A stretch of 64,000 nucleotides of DNA from Argopecten irradians (taxonomy: Eukaryota; Mollusca; Bivalvia; Pectinida; Pectinidae): the NCBI RefSeq assembly GCF_041381155.1, contig NC_091142.1, positions 37,249,604 to 37,313,603 on the forward strand, read 5' to 3'. The notes beneath the pieces are model-generated. The model was not told where the DNA came from. It saw nothing but the letters and a program-made list of their open reading frames with translations, and did not search any database. A program made the translations under genes and the position numbers. Shown here piece after piece: positions 11,501-60,592 of the stretch. The stretch's first letter is position 1. Each line of letters opens with the position of its first letter.

Positions 11501-14500
11501 GTACTGATATTGGGCCTGCAGGATGCATGGATGAAGGGCTACCAAGTCTGTTCAAATAAATAACCTATGACCTTCATTCAAGGTCACAGGGGTCAAATAG
11601 GCTAAAATCCTTTAAACAACTTCTTGTGAATAACTAAGAGGCCTAGAGACCTGATATTAGGCCTGTAGAATGCTGGGATGAAGGGCTACCAAGTTTGTTC
11701 AAATAAATGACCTTGACCTTCATTCAAGGTCAAAGGGGTCAAATAGGCTAAAATCTTTAAACGACTTCTTCTCAAGAACCAGAAGGCCCAGGGTACTGAT
11801 ATTGGGCCTGTGACTTGCTGGGATGAAGGGCTACCAAGTTTGTTCAAATGAATGACCTTGACCTTCATTTAAGGTCAAAGGGGTCAAATAGGCTAAAATC
11901 CTTTAAACAACTTCTTGTGAATAACTAAGAGGCCTAGAGACCTGATATTAGGCCTGTCGCATGCTGGGATGAAGGGCTACCAATTTTGTTCAAATGAATG
12001 ACCTTGATCTTCATTCAAGGTCATAGGGGTCAAATAGGCTAAAATCTTTAAACGACTATGTTGTATTGTACTATTAGTCAGATGACCGTTAAGGCCCATG
12101 GGCCTCTTGTATTTTCTAAAAATGTTTTTTGTCATGAAAAAATAATTATGTACAAAATTATTATGTACAAAAAATGTTTTCTAAAAATATTTTTTGTATT
12201 TTCTAAAAATATTTTTTGTCGAGTCAAATTATTGTACAAAAAAACAACAGGTCTGATGCTAAACCCTGTATTTAAATGGAATCTTCCTATTCTCAGGTGT
12301 ACAATTAATCTTTCAGATAAGGAATTCAACAATGAATGTTTCATTTGGCTTGCTTAAAACATAGACTGTGTCATAGACAATCAATTATTACTGGTTTCTT
12401 AGTGGACTTTATTTTATCTATATTTGAGAAAGTTCATAAAAGTCGCAGAATGTAAGTGGTAATAAACAGGTCATAATCTCTATTTTTTGCCTTATTATTA
12501 TCCCTTTTATATATCTTTGTATACCAAAGGTTTAAATGTCCATTTACACACCAGATTTTCCTGCAATCATTAGGGTTATAGAACCCCACAAGTATCTGGT
12601 ATGCAGTTAATCTTCGTGATAAGGAGTACGGCTATACCCAAATTGGGGTGGTATTCACAAAATACCGCGTCGCCTTTTGTTTTTCTTTACTGTGACGATA
12701 GTACTGAAAACTACGAATATAAAACCGGTAATGAGTTTTGTTTACAATGTTGAGTTATATACCAATATTAACTTTTAATCCCGATTATCAGGACTACCAT
12801 CAGATTAAGGAATTCGGCCAATGAAGATGACATATGGAGTCTGTACAATGTAAAAATAGTCCAACCTTAGGCGCGTTTGCATTCCTTATCTGAAAGATTA
12901 ATTGAATACCTGAAAATGGGAAGATTCCATTTAAATACAGGGTTTAGCGTCAGACCTGTTGTTTTTTGTACATACTGTAAATATTTGATAAAAATTTGTC
13001 ATGACAAAAAATATTTAAAAAAAAAAAAATTTCTGTACATAATTATTTTGTACATAATTATTTTTCATGACAAAAAATATTTTTAGAAAATAAAAGTTGT
13101 ACTTAAATATCAATGACTATTTAAGTACGAAAAACGTTTTGTAGGAGTTGTTTTTTGCCGGCCGCTGTCGGCCATCGTAGAATACACATGTTTCTGTTAA
13201 AACTAAAAACATTAGAAAAAAAAAGTAGAAATTAAACGAAGTCCTATGTTTCTCATTGGCAATGACACTTAAATTTATTGAAGTACCATGCGTTTTACAC
13301 TGTTGTGGAGCGAAAATACCGTTGCCACCATTTGTAGCGATATCGTAGATGATTCTCAGTGCATATTGTATGATTGATTTTTCCAGGTTCCTGCCGCGCC
13401 CACGTGGGTAGAAATCGACGAGAACAAATTACCAAAGGTAAGCTGCAGCAGCAGAAACCGCACCTTTTTGTTATATAAGCCAGTGAATGTATCGTAGTGA
13501 TTGTCATTGTGACGTCTAACGAAGATGGAGAAAACTTTGCACTCGCCGTTTCTTTGAAATAGGATTGCAGGGACATTGATCTTCACTGCAGCACGTTTAC
13601 GTTTGCTTTACTTCGCATCTTCTTAAACATCCAGAGTGTACCCCTCTATAGCACCTATTGACCGTTAATTACTGGAGTTCCTACTCGTTTATATAGCTTC
13701 TAGGCATGACGTCTTAGCGGCAATGGCGGTTGGAATGGTAATGACACAGGGTGACCACTTCAGTGCCTTTTTTATGTTGCCATTTCTTAAACCATTCAGT
13801 CAAACAATATTAGTATATTTAAGCATTATTCTCAATACCTTTTGGGTTTATAAATGGAAGGACATTCTTCATATTTTAGGTAGCGTCCTTGAAAAAGAAT
13901 GTCCGTCTGTTTTTTGCCAATGACTTCGATTCATTAACCTAAAAACTAATCCTTATATTTAACATTTAGATGCATGTAACTAAATCAAGTACTTTCCGTG
14001 ATTTCACTACTTACTTTTACAAAACGAATTGGGTTGGGATGCATGGATATTTCATGCGATAGTTAAATTTGGCCAATTACAGCGCCGCTTTTAAAATATC
14101 TCGCAATACGTTCTGTATGTGTGACGTCATAATACTTGACTCATAATTCTTTCCGTCAATGGATAAATAACCTTAATACGATGGTCATTTAGGACATCTA
14201 CAATATTATTTTCTATCTGAACTTTTTTGAGTGCTCACCTTACTGCTCTCCACATAATATCTCAGCGCTCAATATAACTGAAATATGTTTTCGGTTGCAG
14301 ACTCCAGAGCTCACAACAGACGACATTGAACTCCTAGAACGTTTGTCACTGGTAGAGTTTAATAACAAAGCTGGTGTGGATCGCCTCACTAAAACCATAC
14401 AGGCTGCCAATAAACTGTATGTGGTGGACACGGACGGGGTAGAACCATTGGATACTGTGCTGGAGGATAGGTACGGCTTACATAGACAGCGAAGTCTTAG

Positions 14501-27054: not shown

Positions 27055-28063
27055 TACTGTATTCTACCACCAATAAGCCCCCTACCCAAGAAATAAATAA
27101 CAGGATATATTTAGGGGAGGGGCCTTATTACTGAATTAAGGCCCATGATTTGTATGTAACTCTCTTAATAATCTATAATATACCGTATTCTACCACCAAT
27201 AAGCCCCCTACCCAAGAAATAAATAACAGGATATATTTAGGTGAGGGGCCTTATTACTGAATTAAGGCCTATGATTTGTATGTAACTCTCTTAATAATCT
27301 ATAATATACCGTATTCTACCACCAATAAGCCCCCTACCCAAGAAATAAATAACAGGATATATTTAGGTGAGGGGCCTTATTACTGAATTAAGGCCTATGA
27401 TTTGTATGTAACTCTCTTAATAATCTATAATATACCGTATTCAACCCAATAAGCCCCCTACCCAAGAAATAAATAACAGGATATATTTAGGTGAGGGGCC
27501 TTATTACTGAATTAAGGCCTATGATTTGTATGTAACTCTCTTAATAATCTATAATATACCGTATTCTACCACCAATAAGCCCCCTACCCAAGAAATAAAT
27601 AACAGGATATATTTAGGGGAGGGGCCTTATTACTGAATTAAGGCCCATGATTTGTATGTAACTCTCTTAATAATCTATAATATACCATATTCTACCACCA
27701 ATAAGCCCCCTACCCAAGAAATAAATAACAGGATATATTTAGGTGAGGGGCCTTATTACTGAATTAAGGCCTATGATTTGTATGTAACTCTCTTAATAAT
27801 CTATAATATACCGTATTCTACCACCAATAAGCCCCCTACCCAAGAAATAAATAACAGGATATTTATACCCAGGGGATGATTTGGGGAATATAATTACCCA
27901 TAGTGTAATGTTTAAAAAAAATACGAAAAATAAAATGAAAAAAAATGGAGATGGTACTTATAAAACAAAATTATTACAAACGTTCTACAGTTTTGGTCTT
28001 TATTTATGCCAAGGTAAATGAAATTGAAAAATGGATGGGGCACTTATTGGGTCGAATGCGGTA
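27055..28063. mobile_element. MITE with internal 126-bp tandem array
   Basis: The left end TACTGTATTCTACCACCAAT and the right end (minus strand TACCGCATTCGACCCAATAA) form inverted termini, followed by AGCCCC / GTGCCCC. About 6.4 tandem units with a 126-bp period (starts at 27061, 27187, 27313, 27439, 27563, 27689, 27815) fill 27055-27865. Each unit is itself foldable: AATAAGCCCC near its start pairs with GGGGCCTTATT. No coding capacity. Confidence 0.75.
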
Positions 28064-39207: not shown

Positions 39208-39267
39208 CTGGTTTCCCTAGTCGAATAACCTTCTTTGGTCTCCCTTGATTTCCGTTTATCACCTTAA

Positions 39268-40262
39268 GGTTCATGTAATGGCTTTAACCAGTGATATTTT
39301 GCAAGCCTAAAACGCATTACTGTGCTGCAATTGAACAGAACTAATTTCATTAATTGTTGGTATATACCCTGGCTAACTGTCAGTCTTACTGTTGATAAGT
39401 AATTTGTGAAGCTGCTTGTAAATTTCAGTAAAATAAGAGAAAAATGTATATTTCTGGAGAAGACATAGAACTCGTGTGAATTGCATTGATGGCACCAAAT
39501 AAACATGCTATCGTGTTCAGTAGTGACTATGCCAGGTACTCCAACAGTTTGTTTGGCAAAATCGGACCAGCGAATAGCGCAGGAGCCTATTGTTGTAAAT
39601 GCAAATGGCTGCTTTAAATGGCGGATCACAAATATAGCACATAAGAAGACATTTTAATTGATACAAGTGCTCTTATATACACTATAAGGTACTCTGAACA
39701 TGACAAGAAGAATATTTACGGAAAAAAAATAGTTAAAATGTGGACTTTGAGGCTCTTTCCGGAAATTTGCATTTTTCGCCCCAAACAGATTGTTTGAACT
39801 ATTTTTTTCGTGAAGAGTCTTCTTGTTATGTTCAGAGTACCTTATGGTGTCTATAAAAACATTTGTATCAATTGAGATGGCTTCTTATATGCGATATTTT
39901 CGATCCGCCATTTATAGCAGCCATTTGCATTTACTACAATAGGCTCCTGCGCTATTTGCTGGTCCGATTTTGCCAAACAAACTGTTGGAGTACCTGGCAT
40001 ATTCACAACTGAACACGATGGCATGATTATTTGGTTCCATCAATTCAATTCACACGAGTTCTATGTCTTCTCCAGAAATATACATTTTTCTCATATTTTA
40101 CATGTATTTTACATGCAGCTTCACAAATTACATATCAACAGTAAGACTGACAGTTAGCCAGTGTATATACCAACAATTAATGAAATTAGTTCTGTTCAAT
40201 TGCAGCACAGTAATGAGTTTTAGGCTTGCAAAATATCACTGTTTAAAGCCATTACATGAACC
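39268..40262. repeat. ~1-kb long palindrome flanked by TTAA
   Basis: Two arms of about 470-490 bp run in opposite directions from GGTTCATGTAATGGCTTTAA at 39268 to its complement ending 40262, with a centre near 39740-39790. The arms look about 90% identical by eye. TTAA is present at 39264-39267 and 40263-40266, so this is probably a foldback transposon. Frames found in both arms are mirror copies of the same DNA. It lies between the divergent cysteine-rich gene and IFT22. Confidence 0.88.
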
Positions 40263-40944
40263 TTAATTTATATTTAGAATATGGCCTTTTAAGACTTAAT
40301 GATTTAAGTTGAAAGTTTCATGAAACCTATATACATCATGTTGTGTATGTCAGACAATCAAGTAACAAACTGAAAGTACAGATATCTTGGCAGTTTTACA
40401 TTATGCAGCTGTTATGTTCTGCAGTACAGTAGAGAAGTGGCCTGTCTCATTAAACATGGAAACGCTTAAACAAATTGAATTTAAAGTAAAATTATTTTGG
40501 TTTGAATGTCCCATGGCAATTATTTCAAATACTTCAAGATGTTTGTAAAACAAAATACTATTTACAATACGCAGAACACACCGAATAACACTATTTTGAC
40601 ATCTTCTTCTACAAGCTAAGGCATGATTTTGGAACTTCCGCTCAAAATGAAAACCACGTGATCAAACAATACGTAAAATGTACGTGAAAACTATCGTAAA
40701 CATATTATCTTCATCCTTAATTTATATTAATTTTATTAGATCTATTAATGGTTAAATATTGAGATATATTAATCACACATGTTTTAATTATATATATTCA
40801 ATTACATTATATTAACCTGTCTTTTACGACACCAAATTAATTTATTTCCGGTAGGTGGCGTTTTTGAGTTGCTTCCGCTAACAAATTCCTCAAGTTGAGT
40901 TCGGCTGCTAGTTTTTTTATTTGGACGCTTCAAATCTGAATAGA

Positions 40945-43900
40945 ATGTTTAAAGCCAAAGTTTTAGTAGTGGGTCCATGCCAGGTAAGTGGCGTTACCTT
41001 TTAAAGCGTCCTAAATATACGCTGCAGAACAGGGGAAATAACACATTTCTGTCGAGTGTCCCGACCAGGAATCGAACCGTGTCTATTCATTCCTCTGCTA
41101 GGCCTATGGCTTGATAAAACCAACGGCCCTACTGACAGTACCAACTTTGCGGGCAAATACTTCGTCATATCAGGTGATGAGAGACATATAGTATTTGTTT
41201 TGTAGAAGAACAGGTAAATACACATTCTCCGGTATGGAAATGTACGGCTCTAATACACATTCTCCGGTATGGAAATGTACGGCTCTACTAGTATACCGAC
41301 TGAGCCAAAGAAGCAAGCTCCGTCAGTAATTGGGATGTCGACGACGATTGACGTAACTCTGAACGACAGATTTCAGATAGATGGTCATTGGGAACGAAGT
41401 GGAGTTCTAGAAATCGAACTGCGGGAGTCAGGAATAATTGACGAAAAATCGTAATCCACGGCTCACGCTAGTCGTTTTGGTGTATAACTGTGAAGTACAA
41501 TTCATTTTCGGTTAGTCCCACCTTCTGCTGATTTTATACAGTATATAACATCACAAAATTCACAAAAGATGAAGTCATAGATCTTGAAACCACGGTATTG
41601 AATTTGACCTGATCTATGTAGAACGGTTACACACTTGCCTCCCTTTTACAGTCTTCGCCTTGAAGACTCAACACATAAAGCTTATCACAGTTGGTCACAT
41701 GCACCAAATGTAGTAGGAGCAGAAAAATGCACAGCAGACTGGGATTCAAACCCTGGACCCTCTGAATGCTCTACCAATTTAGCTACTTGGTCGCCGTCAA
41801 CCCAATCCAAAACACTTGGCTCTGTCTTTTTTTTTTAAAAGTGATATCCAATATCTCCATGAAACCTCAAACTACATGACTTTGCATTTGGTTATTTAGT
41901 TGAATGCCAGTGTAGAAGAACAGAAAAACACACATTCTCATCAAGTAATCCAAGCAAAATGTAAACATACATAGTACATCTGCGTGGTCTGTTTTATAAA
42001 CCAACAATCCAACAAACTGTAAGCCAAATTGATGCCATGTCTTATACTCTTTAAGTGTCTATAAAAACTATAAAAGTGTTGAGTAAATTATATGTAGGAA
42101 TTCCACTAGTTTGACCAGGGATTAAAGGGACAATTCACTCAGGCTAATTCTTTTACATAACCAAGAAGCAAAATATGATATAAATGTATTGTTCTGCATT
42201 TCTTATGAAAAGTATAACATAAAATATTGACAAATTCCACGTCATTTTTTAGTATTTTAATTGATACCGTTGTAATTACAAATCGTTGATCGATACAATT
42301 AATCAGGTACAATATGTATGCTGTACCCATACCCGAGCCAAAGTCATGCACGTTAAACAAATGGCAATATAACCAATGAGGAGGTGATAAAATGATTTTT
42401 AAGCAAGACAATTCACCTAATAAGGTAAACACACTACTGTCAGAGCGATTGGAGCAGTTCTAGACAAAAGTAGCATTATTCTACGAGCAATACAGTTTAA
42501 TCCTTAATAGTTTTATCCTTTATATCATAAATAGCTTTGTATTTGAGGAAGAAATCTTGATGTGGAGTGAAAGTAAATTTGATTAAGGTGATATCAGTGA
42601 CCATATTTCTCAGTATGAAATCAATTGACTAAAAGCTATGTTGTAAAACAATGTAGATCTGTATTATCAACTTTTGTTCCTTTCATTTCAGAGTGGTAAA
42701 ACAACAGTGTCTAATTTCCTAGCTGACGCTACAGATCAAGCTAGTGGAGAGTATCATCCCACACAAGGTTGTCGAATTGTAGAATTTGAATGTAACACAG
42801 GAGGTCGTCAAAATGTAGAGGTCGAGATGTGGGACTGTAGTGGTGACCGAAGGTTATGTGATAAAAAATGATAATAATCCTGCATGTGTATAAGCACCCA
42901 TCCTCGCCCTGTTTTTTAGGCCTATATTTAATTTACCTTAAATTGAAATCTTTATGGAATGCAAGCTGAAAATATGAACAACATAAAGTGTCTTTATTAT
43001 ATTTCATGACGAGTTGATTTGTAGGTTATTCTGTGCAATATCTTTTATGAAATGACTAAATTTGGACCCACTGAAATGCCCCTCATAGTCACCACCTCAT
43101 ATCTTTAAGCAATACAGGAATTTCCATTTTATATGTTCAGTCTGCCCAACATTGGAGGCTTTTTATCATGCTATTCAGTAAAATTCTCTCTCTACTGTTG
43201 TACTATTAAAACCAGAAATTGGTAACAACATATCATATAAAACACACTTATAACGAACATACTTACAACAAATTCAGGGTTTCTAACATAGTGACTTTCA
43301 TAGTGATTTTGTTGGTCCCCAGATATTTGTGGTAATTGTGTTTTACTGCATAGATGTATGCTCTAAATTATAGCATTACACTTTCATTGTTTATTCAATA
43401 TTCATGACATCAAATTTCTGATCCTTTATTTTAGATTTGAGACCTGTTGGCCAGCCATGGCTAAAGATACAAATGGTGTGCTATTTGTGTTCAATCCTGA
43501 TATGCCAAACCATGACAAAGATATGGAGGGGTGGTAAGTATCTAACCATGACATATATATGGAAGGGCTGTAAGTGTCTAACTATGACAAAGATATGGGT
43601 GGGTGGTAAGTGTCTTACTATGACAAAGATATGGAGGGGTGGTAAGTGTCTAACTATGATAAAGATATGGAGGGGTGGTAAGTGTCTAACTATGATAAAG
43701 ATATGGAGGGGTGGTAAGTGTCTAACTATGATAAAGATATGGAGGGGTGGTAAGTGTCTAAATATGACAAAGATATGGAGGGGTGGTAAGTGTCTTACTA
43801 TGACAAAGATATGGAGGGGTGGTAATGTTGTTTAACTATGATAAAGATGTGGAGGGGTGGTAAGTGTCTAACTATGATAAAGATATGGAGGGGTGGTAAG

Positions 43901-46900
43901 TTTTTTACTATGGCAAAATATATGGAGGGGTGGTAAGTGTGTCTAACTATGACAAAGATATGGAGGGGTGGTAAGTGTCTAACTATGAAAAAGATATGGA
44001 TGGGTGGTAAGTGTCTAACTATGATAAAGATATGGAGGGGTGGTAAGTGTCTAACTATGATAAAGATATGGAGGGGTGGTAAGTGTCTAACTATGATAAA
44101 GATATGGAGGGGTGGTAAGTGTACTATAATACTATGACAAAGAAAAGATTGGGGTGGTAAGTGTCTAACTATGACAAAGATATGGAGGGGTGGTATTAGT
44201 GTCTAACTATGATAAAGATGTGGAGGGGTGGTAAGTGTCTAACTATGACAAAGATATGGAGGGGTGGTAAGTGTCTTACTATGACAAAGATATGGAGGGG
44301 TGGTAAGTGTCTAACTATGATAAAGATGTGGAGGGGTGGTAAGTGTCTAACTATGAAAAAGATATGGAGGGGTGGTAAGTGTCTAACTATGATAAAGATA
44401 TGGAGGGGTGGTAAGTGTTTAACTATGATAAAGATATGGAGGGGTGGTAAGTGTCTAACTATGATAAAGATATGGAGGGGTGGTAAGTGTTTAACTATGA
44501 CAAAGATATGGAGGGGTGGTAAGTGTCTAACTATGACAAAGATATGGAGGGGTGGTAAGTGTCTAACTATGATAAAGATATGGAGGGGTGGTAAGTGTCT
44601 AACTATGACAAAGATATGGAGGGGTGGTAAGTGTCTAACTATGACAAAGATATGGAGGGGTGGTAAGTGTCTAACTATGACAAAGATATATGGTAACTAT
44701 AAAGATAGGAGGGGTGGTAAGTGTCTAACTATGACAAAGATATGGAGGGGTGGTAAGTGTCTAACTATGACAAAGATATGGAGGGGTGGTAAGTGTTTAA
44801 CTATGACAAAGATATGGAGGGGTGGTAAGTGTCTAACTATGACAAAGATATGGAGGGGTGGTAAGTGTCTAACTATGACAAAGATATGGAGGGGTGGTAA
44901 GTGTTCTAACTATGAAAAGATATGGAGGGTGGTAAGTGTCTAACTATGACAAAGATATGGAGGGGTGGTAAGTGTCTAACTATGACAAAGATATGGAGGG
45001 GTGGTAAGTGTCTAACTATGACAAAGATATGGAGGGGTGGTAAGTGTCTAACTATGACAAAGATATGGAGGGGTGGTAAGTGTCTAACTATGACAAAGAT
45101 ATGGAGGGGTGGTAAGTGTCTAACTATGACAAAGATATGGAGGGGTGGTAAGTGTCTAACTATGATAAAGATATGGAGGGGTGGTAAGTGTCTAACTATG
45201 ATAAAGATATGGAGGGGTGGTAAGTGTCTAACTATGATAAAGATATGGAGGGGTGGTAAGTGTCTAACTATGACAAAGATATGGAGGGGTGGTAAGTGTT
45301 TAACTATGATAAAGATATGGAGGGGTGGTAAGTGTCTAACTATGACAAAGATATGGAGGGGTGGTAAGTGTCTAACTATGACAAAGATATGGAGGGGTGG
45401 TAAGTGTCTAACTATGACAAAGATATGGAGGGGTGGTAAGTGTCTAACTATGACAAAGATATGGAGGGGTGGTAAGTGTTTAACTATGATAAAGATATGG
45501 AGGGGTGGTAAGTGTCTAACTATGACAAAGATATGGAGGGGTGGTAAGTGTCTAACTATGATAAAGATATGGAGGGGTGGTAAGTGTCTAACTATGAAAA
45601 GATATGGGGGTGGTAAGTGTCTAACTATGACAAAGATATGGAGGGGTGGTAAGTGTCTAACTATGAAAAGATATGGAGGGGTGGTAGTGTCTACTATGCT
45701 AATATGAAAAGATATGGAGGGGTGGTAAGTGTCTTAACTATGATAAAGATATGGAGGGGTGGTAAGTGTCTAACTATGACAAAGATATGGAGGGGTGGTA
45801 AGTGTCTAACTATGACAAAGATATGGAGGGGTGGTAAGTGTCTAACTATGACAAAGATATGGAGGGTGGTAATGGGTGGTAATTGTAGTAACTATGAAAA
45901 AGATATGGATGGGTGGTAAGTGTCTAACTATGATAAAAGATATGGAGGGGTGGTAAGTGTCTAACTATGAAAAGATATGGAGGGGTGGTAAGTGTCTAAC
46001 TATGACAAAGATATGGAGGGGTGGTAAGTGTCTAATGAAAAGATAGGGGGTAAGTGTCTAACTATGACAAAGATATGGAGGGGTGGTAAGTGTCTAACTA
46101 TGACAAAGATATGGAGGGGTGGTAAGTGTCTAACTATGAAAAGATATGGAGGGGTGGTAAGTGTCTAACTATGATAAAGATATGGAGGGGTGGTAAGTGT
46201 CTAACTATGATAAAGATATGGAGGGGTGGTAAGTGTCTTACTATGGCAAATATATGGATGGGTGGTAAGTGTCTAACTATGATAAAGATATGGAGGGGTG
46301 GTAAGTGTCTAACTATGACAAAGATATGGAGGGGTGGTAAGTGTCTAACTATGATAAAGATATGGAGGGGTGGTAAGTGTCTAACTATGACAAAGATATG
46401 GAGGGGTGGTAAGTGTCTAACTATGACAAAGATATGGAGGGGTGGTAAGTGTCTAACTATGATAAAGATATGGAGGTGAGGGTAAGTGTCTAACTATGAC
46501 AAAGATATGGAGGGGTGGTAAGTGTTTAACTATGATAAAGATATGGAGGGGTGGTAAGTGTCTAACTATGACAAAGATATGGAGGGGTGGTAAGTGTCTA
46601 ACTATGATAAAGATATGGAGGGGTGGTAAGTGTCTAACTATGATAAAGATATGGAGGGGTGGTAAGTGTCTAACTATGACAAAGATATGGAGGGGTGGTA
46701 AGTGTCTAACTATGATAAAGATATGGAGGGGTGGTAAGTGTCTAACTATGATAAAGATGTGGAGGGGTGGTAAGTGTCTAACTATGATAAAGATATGGAG
46801 GGGTGGTAAGTGTCTAACTATGATAAAGATGTGGTTGGGTGGTAAGTATCTAACTTCATACTGTATATGACAAAGATATGGAGGGGTAAACCAATATGTA

Positions 46901-47539
46901 TGTAACCGTGATTTTAAGCATCCTCTTACTTGAAATTATAAACGTGTTTTCTTTCCCATAGGTATGACTATTTTGTGACACAACAAAATTTGAAGGATAG
47001 TCAATGTCTAGTATTTGCTCATCATAAGCCTGGTGCAAATGAAAGAGAAAGATCTCAGCTCAGTAAGTATTTAAGTATCACAATGAAATGCTTGGAATAT
47101 GGGAATGTTCTTGTCCTTCCTTTGGTGATTTAGAGCGGGGAGAGAGCTGAAATCTCGTTTAGTAAAGACGTCATGTAAAACAGTTCATTTTGACCAACTG
47201 CCTTATATTAAACACTAGGTGAACTGAACCTGCCTTTCGACTGTTGGTATTGTCTCTTCTATTTTATTTTGATATAACAAATTGTTCTTACGCATCGACA
47301 TGTCATAGAGATTGATACATATGAATTAATTTGATACAGCGTTAGAAGTTTGTGTTTTACTTGACTGTATCCTAACACTTGTTACAGGTGATACGTTTGC
47401 TAACATACAGATGGTACCTACCAACATTGAAGACGACGCCGATGACGTTAGGAACCACTTCAACAACTATCTCTCTCGTATCATATCTGCATTGTCAGAC
47501 AATCGGGATAAAGAAGAACTCAGTATTATGAATAATTGA
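40945..47539 (+). CDS. IFT22: intraflagellar transport protein 22 / Rab-like 5 GTPase
   Basis: Five exons: 40945-40983, 42692-42852, 43435-43533, 46962-47062 and 47388-47539 (stop TGA). Phases agree and the product is 183 aa (human 185). The P-loop GPCQSGKTTVSNFL spans the exon 1/2 junction; WDCSGD is the G3-like region; exon 3 encodes RFETCWPAMAKDTNGVLFVF; exon 4 encodes CLVFAHHKPG; exon 5 ends NRDKEELSIMNN, family-typical. IFT22 is an atypical small GTPase of the IFT-B complex at the ciliary base and axoneme. The exon 3 donor (GGGGTG|GTAAGTAT) is the founding unit of the 3.4-kb array filling intron 3. A TTTCCGGT (ETS-like) motif lies at about 40848 upstream of the ATG. Confidence 0.96.
41020..41135 (-). 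mobile_element. tRNA-derived SINE fragment in IFT22 intron 1
   Basis: On the minus strand: TAGGCCTAGCAGAGG (A-box-like) followed by CGGTTCGATTCCTGGTC (B box), spaced about as in a tRNA. No tRNA cloverleaf is supported, so it is a SINE head. Confidence 0.6.
41220..41292. repeat. 35-bp direct duplication
   Basis: ACACATTCTCCGGTATGGAA with its following ATGTACGGCTCTA occurs twice in tandem. Confidence 0.9.
41685..41802 (-). mobile_element. tRNA-derived SINE in IFT22 intron 1
   Basis: On the minus strand: TAGCTAAATTGGTAGAGC (A box) and CCAGGGTTTGAATCCCAG (B box). A 3' body of about 80 bp follows to 41640. Interpreted as a SINE rather than a tRNA gene because the stems between the boxes do not pair convincingly. 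Confidence 0.6.
42126..42485. mobile_element. TTAA MITE, AGGGACAATTCA family, copy 3 (truncated)
   Basis: TTAA at 42122-42125, then AGGGACAATTCACTCAGGC and a body aligned to copies 1 and 2. The right terminus is lost. Confidence 0.75.
43509..46880. repeat. 36-bp minisatellite derived from IFT22 exon 3 / splice donor
   Basis: About 93 tandem units of 36 bp. The first unit straddles the exon 3 boundary: AACCATGACAAAGATATGGA then GGGGTG|GTAAGTATCT. It encodes NHDKDMEGW and supplies the true donor. Unit 2 (43545) still has AACCATGAC; later units have AACTATGA(C/T)AAAGATATGG and GGGGTGGTAAGTGT. Each unit also has CTAAC, a good branch-point match. Some units have small indels. Long plus-strand frames (up to 261 codons of a 12-residue repeat) are by-products. 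In the IFT22 frame every retained unit reads TGG TAA, a stop. Confidence 0.97.
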
Positions 47540-49874: not shown

Positions 49875-52800
49875 TTAAAGTTTAGCTATTTTTTCCCATT
49901 TTTTCCAGTCTTTCTCAAATTTAATTTTTGCTCTTTCTCCTTGGCTGTAAGCTATATATTTCTGAGTATTATAATAATCTTTTAAAATATTGACAAGACC
50001 ATTAGTGCTGAGTGACTTATGGAGACATCTCATTCTATAAATATACTGTTTTATAACTAGCAGAATTTCATTGTCAGCTTTGAAGGAAATGGAGTTGGAG
50101 GAATGTAGACCAAAAATAAAAGTTTGTTTATTGAAACCAAGAGGAATGAATAAAACATCAAGTAGAGCTGTGAAACAATCTAAAAGATTTTGTACTTCTT
50201 TACACTCCCATAAAATATGAGTTATTGTTTCATTTTCAGAATTACATAAATTACAGTAAGGAGAAACAGAAAGATGTGCTTTAAAAAGAAAAGTGTTTGT
50301 TGTTAAGATGTGGTGATTTATTCTGAACTGTAGCCACTGTAACTTTGTGTTCTTAGTAATATGGAATGGAATTTTGTAAATTTGAGACCAAGTTGCATCA
50401 TCAAGATCAAAGTCTTTGTTCCACTTAACTTTACCAGAAGGCACAGCTTCGTTATGTATTAAAATATTATAAAAATCTTTAGTACCTTTTCTTTCCTTTA
50501 GAAAATATTCAACGCTAATTGGTACAAATGGATACTGAAGTTTTGATTGAGGAATTACAGCCGATGATAAGAACTTTTTAACAGCCGATATGATACTATG
50601 ATAATGAAGAAAGTTGGTATTTACATTGTACCTGTGAAGAAACTCATTGAAAGTGTAAAAACTCTTTGTAGTACTGTCTCTTAATAGATCATTGATTGTA
50701 ATAACATTTTTTTCAAAAAGATTTTTATCATAAATGAACTTCTTATCAACAGTTATATTTTTATTAAACCAAATAGGGGTTTTCAGAATAGATACCTCTG
50801 TAGTAGTGTTCTTATCATTCATCTTGATCAGTGCATTCCATGCTTTAAAAACATCAATCCAAAATTTATTGGACATTTTTTTCTGGCAAATTTGTAAATA
50901 TTCATTTCCACCATTAACTAAAATATCTACATTTACCAAACTCTTAAAAACAATTTGCCATTTAGCTGTAGTTTGAAAAAATCTTCGAATCCAACCAAGT
51001 TTTAAAGAACACAAGTAAGCTTTCAAATTAATCATTTTCAGGCCACCATTTAAAAAATCTTTAATAATTACATCCCTTTTAACTTTATCAACCTTGCTGT
51101 TCCATAAAAATTCAAAGATAGTGGTATTCAATTTTGAGATAAATGATTCATCAGGATTTGGCAATGCCATAAACAAATGATTAAATTGTGAGATCAGTAA
51201 GGATTTGATTATCTGAATTCGTCCTATTGGAGTAAGTGATCTTCTTTTCCAAGTTTGTATCAAAGACTTCAGTTTTATCAATTTTTTGTCATAGTTCATT
51301 TTTGGCATCTCATGTAAGTTAACATGGAAGTCAATACCTAATAGAGTAAATCTCTGTTTGCCCCACTGTAAGTTCAACTCTGGGAGATAAGTGTCTTCAG
51401 AGAATTTCTTACTGCCAATCCAAATTACATTTGTTTTAGAGACATTCATTTTTAAACCAGATATTCGTTTATAAAAATTAAGTTCAGTAATGGATTCTTT
51501 TAGTGATTGTTCTGAACCATCAAGAGCGAGAGAAGAATCATCAGCATATTGTGACAGAAGAAGAGGACAATTATTAATTTCAATACCTTTGATATTACTA
51601 TTCTGTCTTAATCTTAAAGCTAAAATTTCAGCACAAAGGATAAAAATGTAAGGTGCAATAGGGTCCCCCTGCCGACAGCCTCTTTGTACCTTAAAAAAAG
51701 TTGAAAGATTTCCACCCTGATTGATTGTTGCACTAACATTACTATGGAAAACTTTTACCCAATTTATAATATCTGAGCCAAAACCAAAAAATTTAAAGAC
51801 CTTTTCAATGAAATTCCAAGACACTGAATCAAAAGCTTTCTCAAAATCAATTAACAAAAGCATTCCAGGAATATTTTTTTCTTCTGTGAATTGCATTAAA
51901 TCATAAATCAGCCTTGTGTTTTCCCCAATAAAACGTCCCGCAAGAAAACCAGTTTGATCTTTATCTATAATCTTATCTAATACAGTTTTTATTCTACGAG
52001 TTATTGTACCTGAGGCAATTTTATAGACAACAGTGAGCAGAGTGATAGGTCTCCAGTTTTTGATGAAGTGTCTTGGTTTATCTCCCTTAGGTATACAAGT
52101 TATAATTCCACGTCGTTGAGAAATAGAAAATTCACCATCATAAAACCCAGAATTGATTGATCTAACAACAAAGTTACCTAAAAATTTCCAAAAACATTTA
52201 AAAAATTCAACTGTAAAACCATCAATACCAGGACTTTTGTTATTTTTCATGTTTTTCAAAGTTACCCCTGCTTCGTGTAAAGTAATTAATCCTTCCAATT
52301 TTTCTGAGTCATTTTTATTAATTTTGCAAACATCATAATCTTTAAATACATCATTTAAATCAATATCTTCCAAATCAAAATCAGGGCTGTAGAGATTTTT
52401 ATAAAAATTTTGAACCTCATGTAGAATTTCTTCTTGCTGTGTAATAACCTTTCCATCATCCAATTGAAGTTTTGGTATTATTTTAGAAGTGTAGTTCCTA
52501 TTTTCTAAGTTAAAAAAATAATTTGTGGGTTTTTCACCTTCCTCAATCCATTTAGCTTTAGATCTTATTAGACTGCCCTTAACTTTTTGTTCTCTTATTT
52601 TCTCTAATTCTTTCTTTTTTGCTTCAAGCTGAACTAAATTAATATTATTTTCCTGCTCAAGTTTCATGATATCATTCTTAAGTTCATCTTCAATTAAATT
52701 TTTCTGTTTTTTCAAGTGAGATGAGTATGATATTGTTTTACCCCTAATGTGTGCAAGCAGAATCTCAAGAAAAGTAGGATCAGAAATAGAAAGTTGAATA

Positions 52801-53690
52801 TTCTTATCTTCTATAATGTTGATGTTATCTAAGTTATAAACTGGAAGACAAAACATTGTCTTATACTCTGTAATACATTCTTTTACTAATTCTAGATAGT
52901 TCAAGTCTTGTAATAAACTATTATTGAATTTCCAAACACCTTTTCCTGCCTTGAAATCTGTTAGTTTTAGAGATATACTAGGGAAAGAGTGGTCTGACCT
53001 GTAGCCAGGCTCAATATTTGACTTAACTACACTGGAGAGAAGATTATCTGAAATGAGGAAAAAATCAAGACGAGCCTGTTTAAGCGGATTACTTTTTCTC
53101 CATGTGTATCTTTTCAAGTTTTCATGATGCTCCCTATAAATATCAATAAGTGCAAAATTCTCTATAATTTCCAATACCTTATCTCTGGCTTTATAATTAT
53201 TAATTTTCTTATAGCTATTATCATAATCTTTTTCTGGATCTAAAACCAAATTGAAATCTCCACAGACAATAACATCGTTATTTCCAAATTCTTCTATAGT
53301 TTCAGTCAAAATATTATAAAAATCTGGATTGTCATCATTGGGACCATACAAGCTGATAAGTGTGACGTTATGAGATTCTAATTGAATTTCAATTGCTATA
53401 AAATTACCATCAGGCTCACCCCCTTTTTTCACTTTGATAACTTTGAACTCAAAATTGTTTCTAAACAAAATGGCCACACCCCTGGAATTGGATTTAAAGG
53501 AATTAAAGAAACACTGAAAACCCCATTCATTTCTAATAACATTTTCATTTTCTTTTGTGAAATGTGTGTCCTGTAAACATATAATGTTAGTTTTCAAAAC
53601 TCTAAAATAAGAGAAAAGATCTTTGCGTTTTAGTTTTTCACCTAAACCACGACAATTTGCCGATATAATAGAAATATTATTATCTGTCAT
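49875..53690 (-). CDS. LINE ORF2: endonuclease, reverse transcriptase, zinc knuckle
   Basis: 1271 aa from the ATG at 53690 (MTDNNISIISANCRGLG), chosen because the endonuclease fold starts there; the frame stays open upstream to 53855. An APE-type endonuclease occupies about residues 1-245: SANCRGL, QDTH (~39), LYGPND, GDFNLVLD (~143), ARLDFFLIS, YRSDHS (~231). The reverse transcriptase spans about 440-800: NNKSPGIDGF, LLIDFEKAFDS (~613), GCRQGDPIAPY and the catalytic QYADDSSL (~715). A CCHC-like knuckle, CNLCNSENETITHILWEC, is near 1143. All expected catalytic residues are visible, so the enzyme is probably functional: target nicking and primed reverse transcription. The clade call (L1/Tx1 group) rests on the two-ORF layout and the QDTH/YADD motifs. 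Confidence 0.93.
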   Translation of the reverse strand: MTDNNISIISANCRGLGEKLKRKDLFSYFRVLKTNIICLQDTHFTKENENVIRNEWGFQCFFNSFKSNSRGVAILFRNNFEFKVIKVKKGGEPDGNFIAIEIQLESHNVTLISLYGPNDDNPDFYNILTETIEEFGNNDVIVCGDFNLVLDPEKDYDNSYKKINNYKARDKVLEIIENFALIDIYREHHENLKRYTWRKSNPLKQARLDFFLISDNLLSSVVKSNIEPGYRSDHSFPSISLKLTDFKAGKGVWKFNNSLLQDLNYLELVKECITEYKTMFCLPVYNLDNINIIEDKNIQLSISDPTFLEILLAHIRGKTISYSSHLKKQKNLIEDELKNDIMKLEQENNINLVQLEAKKKELEKIREQKVKGSLIRSKAKWIEEGEKPTNYFFNLENRNYTSKIIPKLQLDDGKVITQQEEILHEVQNFYKNLYSPDFDLEDIDLNDVFKDYDVCKINKNDSEKLEGLITLHEAGVTLKNMKNNKSPGIDGFTVEFFKCFWKFLGNFVVRSINSGFYDGEFSISQRRGIITCIPKGDKPRHFIKNWRPITLLTVVYKIASGTITRRIKTVLDKIIDKDQTGFLAGRFIGENTRLIYDLMQFTEEKNIPGMLLLIDFEKAFDSVSWNFIEKVFKFFGFGSDIINWVKVFHSNVSATINQGGNLSTFFKVQRGCRQGDPIAPYIFILCAEILALRLRQNSNIKGIEINNCPLLLSQYADDSSLALDGSEQSLKESITELNFYKRISGLKMNVSKTNVIWIGSKKFSEDTYLPELNLQWGKQRFTLLGIDFHVNLHEMPKMNYDKKLIKLKSLIQTWKRRSLTPIGRIQIIKSLLISQFNHLFMALPNPDESFISKLNTTIFEFLWNSKVDKVKRDVIIKDFLNGGLKMINLKAYLCSLKLGWIRRFFQTTAKWQIVFKSLVNVDILVNGGNEYLQICQKKMSNKFWIDVFKAWNALIKMNDKNTTTEVSILKTPIWFNKNITVDKKFIYDKNLFEKNVITINDLLRDSTTKSFYTFNEFLHRYNVNTNFLHYHSIISAVKKFLSSAVIPQSKLQYPFVPISVEYFLKERKGTKDFYNILIHNEAVPSGKVKWNKDFDLDDATWSQIYKIPFHITKNTKLQWLQFRINHHILTTNTFLFKAHLSVSPYCNLCNSENETITHILWECKEVQNLLDCFTALLDVLFIPLGFNKQTFIFGLHSSNSISFKADNEILLVIKQYIYRMRCLHKSLSTNGLVNILKDYYNTQKYIAYSQGERAKIKFEKDWKKWEKIAKL

Positions 53691-54235
53691 AATAAAAATA
53701 GTATGGAGTGAAATAATTGAAGTGTGATAGTACATGTGCCGACTCGAAAAGATAGGAAAGGAGCGGAAAGGAAAGATGTGTAGATAGAAAGAGAGAACAT
53801 TTAAAACAAATAAACATAAGGTCACGATACTCGTGAACACTGTCAACCAGCACACTTACCCTCAAAAACATACCAATGCAGTAATACTGTTATAATAGAA
53901 TATAAACATGCACGAATCTGCAATAATCTCATACCGGAAGTAAAACACAGTAGTATAAGTGATAGATCCATATCCGACCTCAAGATCCGGAATTATATCA
54001 GTATATATATAAAATATGAAGCAACACATGTATACATTGTCTTAGTTTTCTAGTAAGTTAAAAGGTTGCCGAACTGTTGAAATTATAGAAAAGATTTAAT
54101 CATTTGCAGCAGTAATATTATCATATTACATATAGAGTATGTTATAGTAGTTAAGCACGTAGAAAATCGAAAAATTTAATAAATAAATATATTGAACATA
54201 GAGCAGATCAAGTAGTAATGCAGTCATATACAAGT

Positions 54236-54304
54236 ATGAAAATCGAAATAAATAAATAAAAAAATAAATGAATGAAAAAATAAATAAATAAATAAATAAA
54301 TAAA
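54236..54304. repeat. (AAAT)n microsatellite in LINE spacer
   Basis: Imperfect AAAT/AATG units between LINE ORF1 and ORF2. Confidence 0.85.
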
Positions 54305-54508
54305 CTCTTACCTGTAGTATGGAAATATTTAAATCCCCAAAATCACTTTCAATCATGACACTGACACACAAAACGAAGAATTAACACACAGAAAAAAAAC
54401 TCATAATAGTTAAAATTTCGGTATAATCCAGGAAAAAAAATCCTGGTGGCACCATAGTGCCTTGTCACTTTACCGAAATATCAAAAAGCACATTGTCCTA
54501 GAAATTGG

Positions 54509-54725
54509 GGGGCCGCGGTGGCCTAGTGGTTAAGATGTCCCGACATATTACCACAAGCCCTCCACCTCTGGGATGCGGGTTCGAATCCCATGTGGGGCAT
54601 TTGCCAGGTACTGACCGCTGGCCGGTGGTTTTTCTCCGGGTACTCCGGCTTTCCTCCACCAACAAACCTGGCACGTCCTTACATGACCCTGGCTGTTAAT
54701 AGGACGTAAAACTAAACAAACCAAA
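54509..54725 (+). mobile_element. intact tRNA-derived SINE inserted in the LINE
   Basis: A 12-bp target duplication CCTAGAAATTGG at 54497-54508 and 54726-54737. The tRNA-like head has A box TGGCCTAGTGG and B box GGTTCGAATCC, followed by a conserved body (GGTGGTTTTTCTCC, GGCTTTCCTCCACC) and an A-rich end. It lies opposite to the LINE. The TAG stop of LINE ORF1 falls in the duplicated target, so the ORF is unharmed. A decayed relative is at 21141-21300. Confidence 0.92.
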
Positions 54726-54726
54726 C

Positions 54727-55512
54727 CTAGAAATTGGAGTCATTCATCAGGTAATCCTCTGTGAGTGGGGTGTCAAACAATAGTTTTCTCTTTTTACCAT
54801 TGGTAAGAATAGCAAAAAGTTTCCCATCCGTGCTATAGGTATTCTTCACACATGAAAGTTTGTAGGCAACATGGAGTATCCTCTGATTGGCTCTGGTGAG
54901 ATCCTCAAACACAGTAAACTTCGATTTCTTCAGTTTGGAACGGGCTTTGATCACTTCCATCTTCTTACGTCGCCGAACAAACTTAACGATAGTGTTCCTA
55001 GGTTTGTCACTCTTGAAGCGTCCCAGTCTGTGGGCAATGTCGATGTCATCTTTACTTATCTGGACGTCCAGTTTCTCCTTTACAAATTTTACAACTTTGG
55101 AAACACATTCCTCAATCGATTCAGTATCTGTGGGATCATCTAGTCCATTGATCCTAATGGAATTTTTGCGACCATGCTGTTCCAAGTCGTTTTGTGCTGC
55201 CTCAGAAATTACTTTGGTATTCTGCAGGTCACAGAACTGTTCCTCAAGGGATATGACAACTGTTCGTAGTTTGTCATTTTCAGTCTCTAAGTCAAATATC
55301 TTTCCCTTTAATTCCTCAATCAACTGCTGGTTTTCTATTTTGATGTCTTCTTTCAGCTTTCTATTTCTGTCTTCAAGATCTTGCTTAGTGACCACACTTT
55401 CAAGCAAACGTGAAATATAATTCAGTCTTTCATCAATAGATTTTTCGGCAAATCCCAATGATTGAAGTCCTGATTTCTGGCCAATAGATCTTCTTTGCCG
55501 TGCAGGATTCAT
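54727..55512 (-). CDS. LINE ORF1: coiled-coil RNA-binding protein
   Basis: 261 aa from ATG 55512 (MNPARQRRSIGQKSG). Residues about 25-115 form a heptad-rich coiled coil (LEDRNRKLKEDIKIE, LKGKIFDLETENDKL). Then comes an RRM-like region (NSIRINGL, about 135-200, with IDIAHRLGRF and NTIVKFVRRRKKMEV) and a basic C-terminal part (RANQRILHVAYKL). This order matches L1-type ORF1p (Transposase_22-like), which trimerises and coats LINE RNA. It is fully open and sits upstream of ORF2 in the same element. Confidence 0.88.
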   Translation of the reverse strand: MNPARQRRSIGQKSGLQSLGFAEKSIDERLNYISRLLESVVTKQDLEDRNRKLKEDIKIENQQLIEELKGKIFDLETENDKLRTVVISLEEQFCDLQNTKVISEAAQNDLEQHGRKNSIRINGLDDPTDTESIEECVSKVVKFVKEKLDVQISKDDIDIAHRLGRFKSDKPRNTIVKFVRRRKKMEVIKARSKLKKSKFTVFEDLTRANQRILHVAYKLSCVKNTYSTDGKLFAILTNGKKRKLLFDTPLTEDYLMNDSNF

Positions 55513-55826
55513 GATGAATATATAACACTGGCAGTAAGGTATAATATAGTATAGTGAGTACAGTAGGTACAGTCCAGGTAAATTCCAGGTAAGTGTGGTT
55601 AACAGTGTTCACGTGCTGGGTGTCAGTCCATTGTTACAAAACACGGTCCAAAAAACATATTTTCAAAATAAGAATTTCCAAATAGAATTCACTAAAGTCA
55701 CAATCAATCTTCCATAGTGTTGGTTGCCAAAATTTACAAGTGAAATCTTGATAAATCTCATAGAAATAAGCTTTTAAGGTGGAGCTCCTGACACACAACC
55801 ACCCAGGTCCACATGACCTTGACCTC

Positions 55827-57960
55827 CCATTGAATCCTATTAATCAATTTTCCATAACTGACCCCCAGTGGCCTTAGGGGCGGGGTCAAAAGGGGTCAAA
55901 TAGGCTATAACTTCAAAAATCTTCTTCTGAAATCCTGGAAATGGTAGAATCACATACTCTTCGTAGATGGAAAGGTCTTGAGGTCCTTTACAAAAATTGT
56001 GAATTATATGACCCTGGGGTCTCAGGTTTCCCCCTGGGGAGGGGGTTAAGTTTACTATAGTTTATATAGGGAAAACACATTTTTGAGTATTATTTGATCA
56101 TTTGTAATAGGAAATGAGTCAAATATTGTCAGAATTATCCGTATGAGATGGCCATTGAATCCTATTAACCAATTTTCCATAACTGACCCCCAGGGGCCTT
56201 AGGGGCGGGGTCAAAAGGGGTCAAATAGGCTATAACTTCAAAAATCTTCTTCTGAAATCCTGGAAATGGTAGAATCACATACTCTTCGTAGATGGAAAGG
56301 TCTTGAGGTCCTTTACAAAAATTGTGAATTATATGACCCTGGGGTCTCAGGTTTCCCCCTGGGGAGGGGGTTAAGTTTACTATAGTTTATATAGGGAAAA
56401 CACATTTTTGAGTATTATTTGATCATTTGTAATAGGAAATGAGTCAAATATTGTCAGAATTATCCGTATGAGATGGCCATTGAATCCTATTAACCAATTT
56501 TCCATAACTGACCCCCAGGGGCCTTAGGGGCGGGGTCAAAAGGGGTCAAATAGGCTATAACTACAAAAATCTTCTTCTGAAATCCTGGAAATGGTAGAAT
56601 CACATACTCATAGATGGAAAGGTCTTGAGGTCCTTTACAAAAATTGTGAATTATATGACCCTGGGGTCTCACGTTTCCCCCTGGGGAGGGGGTCAAGTTT
56701 ACTAGGGAAAACACATTTATGAGCATTTTTTGCTCAATTTTCATAGGAAATGAGTCGAACTTGTTTAGAATTATTAGCCTGAGATAACATTTTAATATCA
56801 TATCTATATTGGTCCTGGTCAACCCCCTCGGGCAGAGGGGCGGGGCCAAAAGGGGCAAATAGGCTAAAACTTTAAAAAATTTCTTCTTAAATACTGGAAA
56901 TGGTAGAACCAAATACTCTTCTTAGATGGACAGGTCTTAAGGTGTTTTATGAAAATTGTGAATTATATGACCCATCACGTTTTCCCCCTGGGGAGGGGGT
57001 CAAGTTTACTATAGTTTATATAGGGAAAACACATTTATGAGCATTTTTTGCTCAATTTTCATAGGAAATGAGTCAAACTTGTTTAGAATTATTAGCCTGA
57101 GATAACATTTAAATATTATATCTATATTGGTCCTGGTCAACCCCCTCAGGGCAGAGGGGCGGGGCCAAAAGGGGCAAATAGGCTAAAACTTTAAAAATCT
57201 TCTTCTTAAATACTGGAAATGGTAGAATCAAATACTCGTCATAAAAAAGGCAGGTCTTAAGGTGTTTTATGAAAATTGTGAATTATATGACCCTTGGGTC
57301 TCAGGTTACCCCCTGGGGAGGGGGGTAAGTTTACTGTAGTTTATAAAGGGAAAAGACATTTTTGAGCATTATTTAGTCATTATAATAGGAAATTAGTCAA
57401 TTGTAGTCAGAATTATCCCTATGTGATGACCATTGAATCTTATTACCAAATTTTCTTTGACTGATCCCAAGGGGCCTTAGGGGCGGGGCCAAAACGGGTC
57501 AAATAGGCTAAAACTTCAAAAATCTTCTTCTGAAATTCTGGAACTGGTAGAATCAAATACTCTGCATAGATTGAAAGGTCTTAAAGTCCTTTACAAAAAT
57601 TGTGAATAATATGACCCTGGGGTCTCATGTTTCCCTCTGGGGAGGGGGTCAAGTTTACTTTAGTTTATATAGGAAAAACACATTTATAAACATTATTTGC
57701 CTATTTTTCATAGGAAATTAGTCAAACTGGGTTAGAATTATTAGCCTGAGATAGCATTTTAACATCATATCCATATTGGTCCTGGCCGACCCCCAGGGGC
57801 CAGAGGGGTGGGGCCAAAAGGGGTCAAAATGGATAACATTTCAAAAATCTTTCTTCTGATTTCACAGATTTGATGGAACCAAATAATCTTCATAGATTAA
57901 AAAGTCAAATTTATAAAATCACTGACTGACTTCAAGGGCCTGATGGGCAAATATATAGTG
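55827..57960. repeat. ~323-bp tandem array of element C, right part
   Basis: About 6.5 units with a ~323-bp period (CCATTGAATCCTATTA near 55827, 56152 and 56475; CTTCTTCTGAAATCCTGG in most). The first 2-3 units are nearly identical; those towards the 3' end are more diverged. The same array starts at 49020-49442, left of the LINE. Confidence 0.93.
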
Positions 57961-58568: not shown

Positions 58569-60592
58569 TAGCTCACCTGGCCCGAAGGGCCGGTGAGCTT
58601 ATGTCATGGCGCGGCGTCCGTCGTCCATCCGTCCGTTCGTCTGTCCGTCAACATTTCCTTTAAATCGCTACTAGTCGTAGAGTTCTGCATGGATTGTAAC
58701 CAAATTTGACCACAAACATCCTTGGGGAGGGGGAACAGAACTTGTATAAATTTTGGCTCTGACCCCCCCCCCCCCCGGGGGCAGGAGGGGCGGGGCCCAA
58801 TAGGGGAAATAGAGGTAAATCCTTTAAATCGCTATTTGTCCTAGAGTTCTGCATGGATTGTAACCAAAATTAGCCAAAAACATCCTTGGAGGCAGGGGAA
58901 CAGAACTTGTATAAATTTTGGCTCTGATCCCCCAGGGGAGGAGGGGCGGGGCCCAATAGGGGAAATAGTGGTAAATCCTTTAAATCGCTACTAGTCATAG
59001 AGTTATGAGTAGAATGTAACCAAATTTGGCCATAAACATCCTTGGGGGAAGGGGAACAGAACTTGTACAAATTTTGGCTCTAACCCCCCCAGGGGCAGGA
59101 GGGGCGGGGCCCAATAGGGGAAATAGAGGTAATCCTATAAATCGCTGCTTGTCCTAGAGTTCTTCATGGATTGTAACCAAATTTGGCCACAAACATCTTT
59201 GAGGGAGGGGGAACAGAACTTGTATAAATTTTGGCTCTGACCCCCCGGGGGCAGGAGGGGCGGGGCCCAATAGGGGAAATAGAGGTAAATCCTTAAAATC
59301 GCTACTTGTCCTAGAGTTCTTCATTGATTGTAACAAAATTTGGCCACAAACATCTTTGAGGGAGGGGGAACAGAATTTGTATAAATTTTGGCTCTGACCC
59401 CCTGGGGGCAGGAGGGGCGGGGGCCAATAGGGGAAATAGAGGTAAATCCTTTAAATCGCTACTTGTCCTAGAGTTCTGCATGGATTGTAACCAAAATTAG
59501 CCACAAACATCCTTGGGGGAAGGGGAACAGAACTTGTATAAATTTTGGCTCTGATCCCCCAGGGGCAGGAGGGGCAGGGCCCAATAGGGGAAATAGAGGT
59601 AAATCCTTTAAATCGCTACTAGTCATAGAGTTCTACATGGATTGTAACCAAATTTGGCCACAAACATCCTTGGGGGAGGGGGAACAGAACTTGTATAAAT
59701 TTTGGCTCTAACCCCCCAGGGGCAGGAGGGGCGGGGCCCAATAGGGGAAATAGAGGTAAATCCTATAAATCGCTACTTGTCCTAGAGTTCTTCATGGATT
59801 GTAACCAAATTTGGCCACAAACATCTTTGAGGGAGGTGGAACAGGACTTGTATAAATTTTGGCTCTGACCCCCTGGGGGCAGGAGGGGCGGGGGCCAATA
59901 CGGGAAATAGAGGTAAATCCTTTAAATCGCTACTTGTCCTAGATTTCTGCATGGATTGTAACCAAAATTAGCCACATTCATCCTTGGGGGAAGGGGAACA
60001 GAACTTGTATAAATTTTGGCTCTGATCCCCCAGGGGCAGGAGGGGCGGGTGCCGAATAGGGGAAATAGAGGTAAATCCTTTAAATCGCTACTAGTCATAG
60101 AGTTCTGAATAGAATGTAACCAAATGGGCACAAACATCCTTTTTGGAAGGGGAACAGAACTTGTATAAATTTTGGCTCTGGCCTCGCGGGGGCAGGAGGT
60201 GTGGGGCCCAATGGGGGAAATAGAGGTAAATCCTATAAATCGCTACTTAATTGTCCTAGAATTCTGTATGGATTCACAAGTAATCAAATTTGGCCACAAA
60301 CATCCTTGGGGGTAGGAGCACAGAACTTGTATAAATTTTGGCTCTGACACCCCGGGGGCAGGAGAGGTGGGGCCCAATAGAGGAAATAGAGGTAAATCCT
60401 TTAAATCGCTACTAGTCATAGAGTTCTGCATGGAATATAACCAAATTTGGCCACAAACATCTTTTGGGGCCCAATAGGGGATTTAGAGGTTAATATTAAA
60501 ATTCCTTCAGAAAAGAAACAATGAACCTGTATTCAGAACATTACTTGGCATTACAAACCAGGTGAGCGATACAGGCCCTCTGGGCCTCTTGT
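58569..60592 (+). mobile_element. Helentron/HINE-like element D
   Basis: The 5' hairpin is AGCTCACCTGGCCC-gaa-GGGCCGGTGAGCT, followed by a CGTCCGTC-rich tract. The 3' end is CAGGTGAGC (complement of GCTCACCTG at the 5' end), then AGGCCCTCTGGGCCTCTTGT. It holds about 12 tandem units of ~157 bp. The 5' stem and the 3' repeat carry a matched G-to-C change compared with A and C. Confidence 0.78.
58655..60480. repeat. ~157-bp tandem array of element D
   Basis: About 12 units, each with TTTAAATCGCTACT or close, GTAACCAAATTTGGCC and GGGGCGGGGCCCAATAGGGG. GC-rich blocks alternate with AT-rich ones. Repeated short minus-strand frames (DLKDLPLFPLLGP) are by-products. Confidence 0.95.

Follow-up and report, generated by a model that had tools for sequence, protein, structure and literature searches.

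A boundary minisatellite that multiplies a predicted 5' splice site in intron 3 of a predicted IFT22 gene

Minisatellites of the kind called mirages are known from the amphioxus genes Adh3 (the mirage of which is reportedly the subject of Canestro 2002), troponin C and the globins BflGb6 and BflGb9, and we compare with them here a 36-bp tandem array that occupies almost the whole of intron 3 of a predicted IFT22 gene in a 64-kb stretch of contig NC_091142.1 (hereafter the window). A second point of comparison is the minisatellite of human IFI6/G1P3 (6-16), the multiple splice donor sites of which were reportedly described by Turri 1995; its unit is 12 bp long and present in about 26 copies, and the extra units are in frame. 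In the passages of PMC3087553 on amphioxus, mirages are minisatellite-like tandem duplications of exon-intron boundaries, with units of 10-160 bp and with length and somatic instability, which leave regular splicing undisturbed, and the clusters in the two haplotypes of one globin gene differ in size (6 and 3 units). For BflGb6, the units are described as homogenised within the cluster, with the cluster boundaries excluded (PMC3087553, PMC3902484). The relevant passages of PMC3902484 also liken the PGBD5 repeats (2-7 units) to mirages and state that the Adh and troponin C mirages produce no aberrant mRNAs. The IFI6/G1P3 minisatellite is described in part of PMC4526556 as giving several splice donors, with two downstream units used and three mRNA species as the outcome, and it is also cited in passages of PMC2572611 and PMC2915984.

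We hold with good confidence that the array in IFT22 is a mirage minisatellite born at the boundary of exon 3 and intron 3, and most likely a tolerated by-product. Tandem Repeats Finder (TRF) gives a period of 36, 92.1 copies and 90% matches for the array, which it places at 43508-46855, and a wrap-around alignment of 43509-46895 to the consensus gives 95 rows: the exon copy (row 0), the intronic units, fragments included (rows 1-92), and a degenerate tail (rows 93-94). This alignment confirms the composition of the unit proposed in the initial annotation, as the founder copy (43509..43544; + strand, like all IFT22 and array features given here) consists of the final 25 nt of exon 3 (43509-43533) and the first 11 nt of the intron (43534-43544). 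The 92 intronic rows recovered by TRF and alignment follow at 43545..46852, from the first unit (43545..43580) to the last full unit (46817..46852), and beyond them lies a degenerate tail unit without GTAAGT (alignment row 93, 46853..46890). With the tail counted, the array fills 3,357 of the 3,428 nt (98%) of predicted intron 3, and only 71 nt separate its end from the acceptor; intron 3 minus the array is the remainder of a very short intron. GTAAGT occurs 88 times in 43509-46895, at the true donor and in 87 of the 92 intronic rows, and 27 times on the + strand in the remainder of the window. The earlier figure of about 90 duplicated donors is therefore borne out, and the accompanying statement that every unit has both a donor and a CTAAC motif stands for the donor in those 87 rows and fails in five (8, 18, 32, 60 and 65), with 74 occurrences of CTAAC in the array region.

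The array stands far above chance level: a 28-mer from the unit, searched with up to 3 mismatches, matched 82 times, always within 43514-46813, where 100 shuffles gave an expectation of 0.00. The question of a dispersed repeat, which bears on the exon as the source, could be checked within the 64-kb window, and there neither this 28-mer search nor an ungapped search with the full 36-mer found a second copy of the unit. The best ungapped matches of the 36-mer outside the array (20/36 on the + strand and 21/36 on the - strand) were no better than those in 20 shuffles of the remaining sequence (mean 21.65, maximum 23). The 25-nt unit pattern had no exact match in viral_contigs, one hit (L001) of 14 pattern matches in genome_contigs was judged by eye on 301 bases to be a chance match in a Bacteroidales metagenome-assembled genome, and an Rfam scan of the window at gathering thresholds gave no match. 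Since 36 is divisible by 3, the array is open in long frames (43422-46935; up to 263 aa on the + strand and 275 aa on the - strand), which could lead gene predictors astray.

At 2 of its 36 positions the exon copy departs from the array consensus. Of the 95 rows, just the founder (row 0) and row 1 have C at unit position 3, and just the founder and row 92 have A at unit position 32. Growth from the exon boundary predicts this pattern, in which exon-specific states persist at either edge of an array that is uniform elsewhere, and because the exon copy also encodes IFT22-like sequence, the view of the initial annotation that the exon end is the founder appears well supported by the sequence. Within the array, 30 of 89 rows are identical to the consensus, a further 22 differ from it solely by C-to-T at position 8, and substitutions outside this variable position amount to 1.5% (column statistics on 89 of the 95 rows, excluding rows 0, 32, 33, 70, 93 and 94). 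Such a uniform interior indicates that the array is either young or held uniform by exchange. We also considered a short-range higher-order periodicity in the state of position 8 (lags 1-10 in rows 1-92, minus pairs with a gap or A at this position), which was not convincing, the smallest P values being 0.031 (lag 10) and 0.036 (lag 5) over ten lags without correction. Most probably, the array began as a tandem duplication of a 36-bp segment across the junction of exon 3 with intron 3; repeated unequal exchange or slippage would then have multiplied a master variant until there were about 92 intronic units, expanding an intron with a non-array remainder of 71 nt to 3.4 kb.

The gene itself was modelled from homology and splice consensus as five predicted exons with GT-AG introns and a joined open reading frame (ORF) of 183 aa. 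Exon 1 (MFKAKVLVVGPCQ, 40945..40983, donor CAG/GTAAGTGG) was predicted by pattern search and joined translation, exon 2 (42692..42852, donor AAG/GTTATG) by the joined ORF, and exon 3 (43435..43533, 99 nt), the final 25 nt of which are the repeat founder, by the joined ORF together with IFT22 homology; exon 4 (46962..47062) follows the acceptor TTTCTTTCCCATAG, and exon 5 (47388..47539) includes the stop codon. In a PDB sequence search with a 170-aa query lacking exon 1, the best 3 of 41 hits were IFT22/RABL5 chains (E 2e-18 to 4e-16), with Rab7 far behind (E 3e-6), and NHDKDMEGWYDYF, which spans the exon 3/4 junction, sits within the alignments to all three IFT22 chains. Matches in Pfam were confined to the general domains Roc, Arf and Ras. 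The predicted protein is thus, judging from these alignments, the small GTPase IFT22 (RABL5), since it resembles IFT22 more than it does Rab, Ras or Arf, in agreement with the identity first assigned to it. No IFT22 relative was confirmed in viral_contigs, where two stretches fitted the pattern. Two further observations concern the other introns: the predicted intron 2 donor AAG/GTTATG (42848-42860) looks weak, with a U1 pairing of -2.7 kcal/mol, unlike the strong donor of exon 3, and a perfect 35-bp tandem duplication lies at 41217-41287, inside predicted intron 1.

Set beside the known systems, the IFT22 array fits the anatomical definition of a mirage and is an extreme example of a kind already described, though seldom noticed. 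Its tandem units span a predicted exon-intron boundary with 92 further intronic rows, the splice signal is duplicated with them in 87, and the homogenised interior with founder bases retained in rows 1 and 92 recalls BflGb6, a feature that is not strictly defining. What stands out is the scale. The amphioxus mirages, the PGBD5 repeats included, have 2-7 copies in the passages cited above against about 92 intronic units here, and unlike them the IFT22 array makes up nearly the whole intron and repeats the donor side alone. Boundary minisatellites that alter splicing are also described, in part of PMC2812944, for human duplicated genes, with on average 4 units of 30 bp in recent paralogues; as presented there they are tied to new introns, whereas the IFT22 array enlarges an existing one. 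In the AGGT model and the potato RdRp intron gain, again according to the passages on them (PMC4974935), tandem duplication copies the splice signals. The IFT22 unit supplies a donor without a good acceptor: its three AGs have 3-8 pyrimidines in the 15 upstream positions, compared with 10-13 at the four predicted real acceptors, by a simple count and not a trained splice model. Unlike those cases, no new intron is inferred for IFT22, and as units without a good acceptor are unlikely to become new exons, we ruled out micro-exons and recursive splice points on the same pyrimidine count.

The predicted true 5' splice site (GTAAGTAT, 43534..43541, phase 2, inside the Trp100 codon) was held in the initial annotation to be one base closer to the U1 consensus than the internal units, and to be marked by this better match. 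The extra match exists (GTAAGTAT versus GTAAGTGT in the most frequent unit donor, present at 82 of the 88 GTAAGT sites), but the duplex energy is unchanged at -11.0 kcal/mol for both, as computed with an 11-nt U1 5' end without pseudouridines. Four outlier donors, one site each, gave -7.3, -9.1, -11.9 and -12.2 kcal/mol; altogether 83 of the 87 internal donors equal the true donor in energy and two are stronger. The donor of the last unit, at 46842, repeats GTAAGTAT with an 11-nt context identical to that of the true donor and lies 120 nt from the acceptor, the length of the intron if it were used. Given equal energies, an identical last donor and stronger internal ones, donor strength is not decisive, and a stronger U1 match had to be abandoned as the discriminator of the true donor. 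The remaining cues are those of position, namely a 99-nt exon with a good upstream acceptor, the order of transcription, and the weakness of the first competitor, which lies 36 nt further on (GCT/GTAAGTGT, -7.3 kcal/mol), in the unit that keeps the exon's C. U1 may well bind many donors during splicing, and the first donor would normally be used, being the one that sets a compact 99-nt exon with the exon 3 acceptor and the earliest to be transcribed. Multiple U1 occupancy, in the account given in part of PMC5389562, affects the choice of site and not splicing efficiency unless the sites are very close, a limit that the 36-nt spacing of the units might approach. Masking of the decoys by RNA structure was rejected for want of a consistent difference in three folded stretches of about 500-660 nt, the predicted unpaired values being 0.41 and 0.39 for the true donor (two folds) and 0.17-0.76 for the other donors in those folds.

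When any of the 87 alternative donors is joined to exon 4, the result is an identical product of 100 residues ending in EGW, then TAA, just as the initial annotation had expected of a TGG TAA stop. All share the stop because of the phase: when GTAA comes after a phase-2 exon end, the reading is bound to be xxG TAA. The same holds for any phase-2 intron that starts with GTAA, which makes the stop a generic property rather than a design of the repeat. For every alternative donor, 133 nt or more separate this premature stop from the exon 4/5 junction downstream of it, and by the vertebrate rule a stop that far upstream would be visible to exon-junction-dependent decay. Later donors would most likely be used at a low level at most and would give truncated, decay-prone transcripts. 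The likeness to IFI6 is in minisatellite units that bear splice donors; the donor variants of IFI6 encode different isoforms in the passage of PMC4526556, whereas in IFT22 every later donor brings an in-frame stop and the extra units add no coding sequence beyond residue 100.

That the array regulates IFT22, with internal donors in competition, some transcripts stopping at TGG TAA and decaying, and the repeat number setting the output, seems to us unlikely. Such regulation would draw on the near equality of the internal donors in computed U1 energy, on the decay-prone stop that each of them brings, on the closeness of the last donor to the acceptor, and on the use of two downstream repeat units as donors in human IFI6, as described in PMC4526556. 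A few observations also weigh against the array as a tolerated by-product: two internal donors outpair the true donor with U1, the last donor might be favoured under intron definition, the weakness of the first competitor, although a matter of one unit, would be in keeping with selection on competition, and predicted folding does not single out the true donor. To these may be added that a single genomic locus for the unit is seen within the 64-kb window only, and that the donor columns lean to conservation, with 1 of 25 distinct substitutions falling in GTAAGT versus 4.2 expected (P = 0.06). This lean is not significant, which speaks against regulation, and with 1 deletion and 4 insertions also striking the donor columns, strong purifying selection on the internal donors was rejected; substitution counts do not establish their functional maintenance. 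The amphioxus mirages, reported in the passages above to leave splicing undisturbed, point the same way. Length-dependent IFT22 output and nonsense-mediated decay are possible. A splice-site-competition rheostat, in which the truncated fraction of IFT22 mRNA, and with it cilia-gene dosage, would differ between individuals according to how many near-identical donors they carry, with the last at short-intron distance from the acceptor, is in our estimate quite improbable. Sequestration of U1 by the array looks implausible in view of the abundance of U1.

G-runs can act as splicing enhancers, and U1 suppresses premature polyadenylation. Hence the array could be thought to aid the true donor, its G-runs and bound U1 enhancing splicing and shielding a long intron from premature polyadenylation, and the counts are in line with this: GG[ACT]GGGG[ACT]GG occurs 80 times in 43509-46895 and, on the + strand, 8 times elsewhere in the window, and AATAAA/ATTAAA is absent from intron 3, although its density in the window would predict about 8 copies there. 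The role of U1 in suppressing polyadenylation is also mentioned in part of PMC5389562. Nevertheless, we regard such help as very unlikely, for the G-runs and the missing AATAAA/ATTAAA are a trivial result of the founder unit sequence. An ordinary satellite beside exon 3 with a secondary likeness to the exon, or an assembly artefact of copy number, is scarcely credible even in a window that holds other large arrays, given the IFT22-coding exon end, the exon-specific bases at the array edges, the lack of a further copy in the window, and the indels and variants scattered along the array, unlike simple assembly stutter. The exact copy number of the array is an assembly figure.

The array is also a natural experiment on the choice of a 5' splice site, as one predicted real donor is set against 87 mostly near-identical ones, 36 to 3,308 nt downstream. 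Nearly exclusive use of the first donor would mean that exon definition and transcription order count for more than how strong a donor is or how near it lies to the acceptor; if the first donor is not dominant, the repeat number becomes a dosage control. The array illustrates, too, how a boundary minisatellite can take over almost a whole intron and leave the protein untouched. If the organism is a mollusc, mirages would occur outside cephalochordates, at a copy number far above that in the published passages cited here. In the open-licence literature, no bivalve or mollusc mirage was recognisable by title or abstract opening, and cases in print are possible.

The window carries several other repeats. 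A large foldback element (39264-40266), some 700 bp ahead of the predicted first exon of IFT22, consists of two inverted-repeat pairs, one inside the other (300 nt, 91%, and 164 nt, 96%), the inner arms being 74 nt apart. A LINE-like element at 49875-55608 (- strand) is possibly a recent copy; it has two long uninterrupted frames. In the longer, of 1,326 aa, Pfam recognises reverse transcriptase, endonuclease and zf-RVT domains; the other, of 293 aa, lies upstream, has no Pfam match and is ORF1-like by position. Large arrays lie at 27055-27862 (126 bp), 55827-57859 (325 bp) and 58656-60469 (157 bp), and with a single GTAAGT or ACTTAC among all three they do not qualify as donor arrays. Finally, a 146/291-bp satellite at 9138-12057, with about 20 copies of the 146-bp period, contains TGACCT 37 times and AGGTCA 18 times, which we take to be nuclear-receptor-like half sites.

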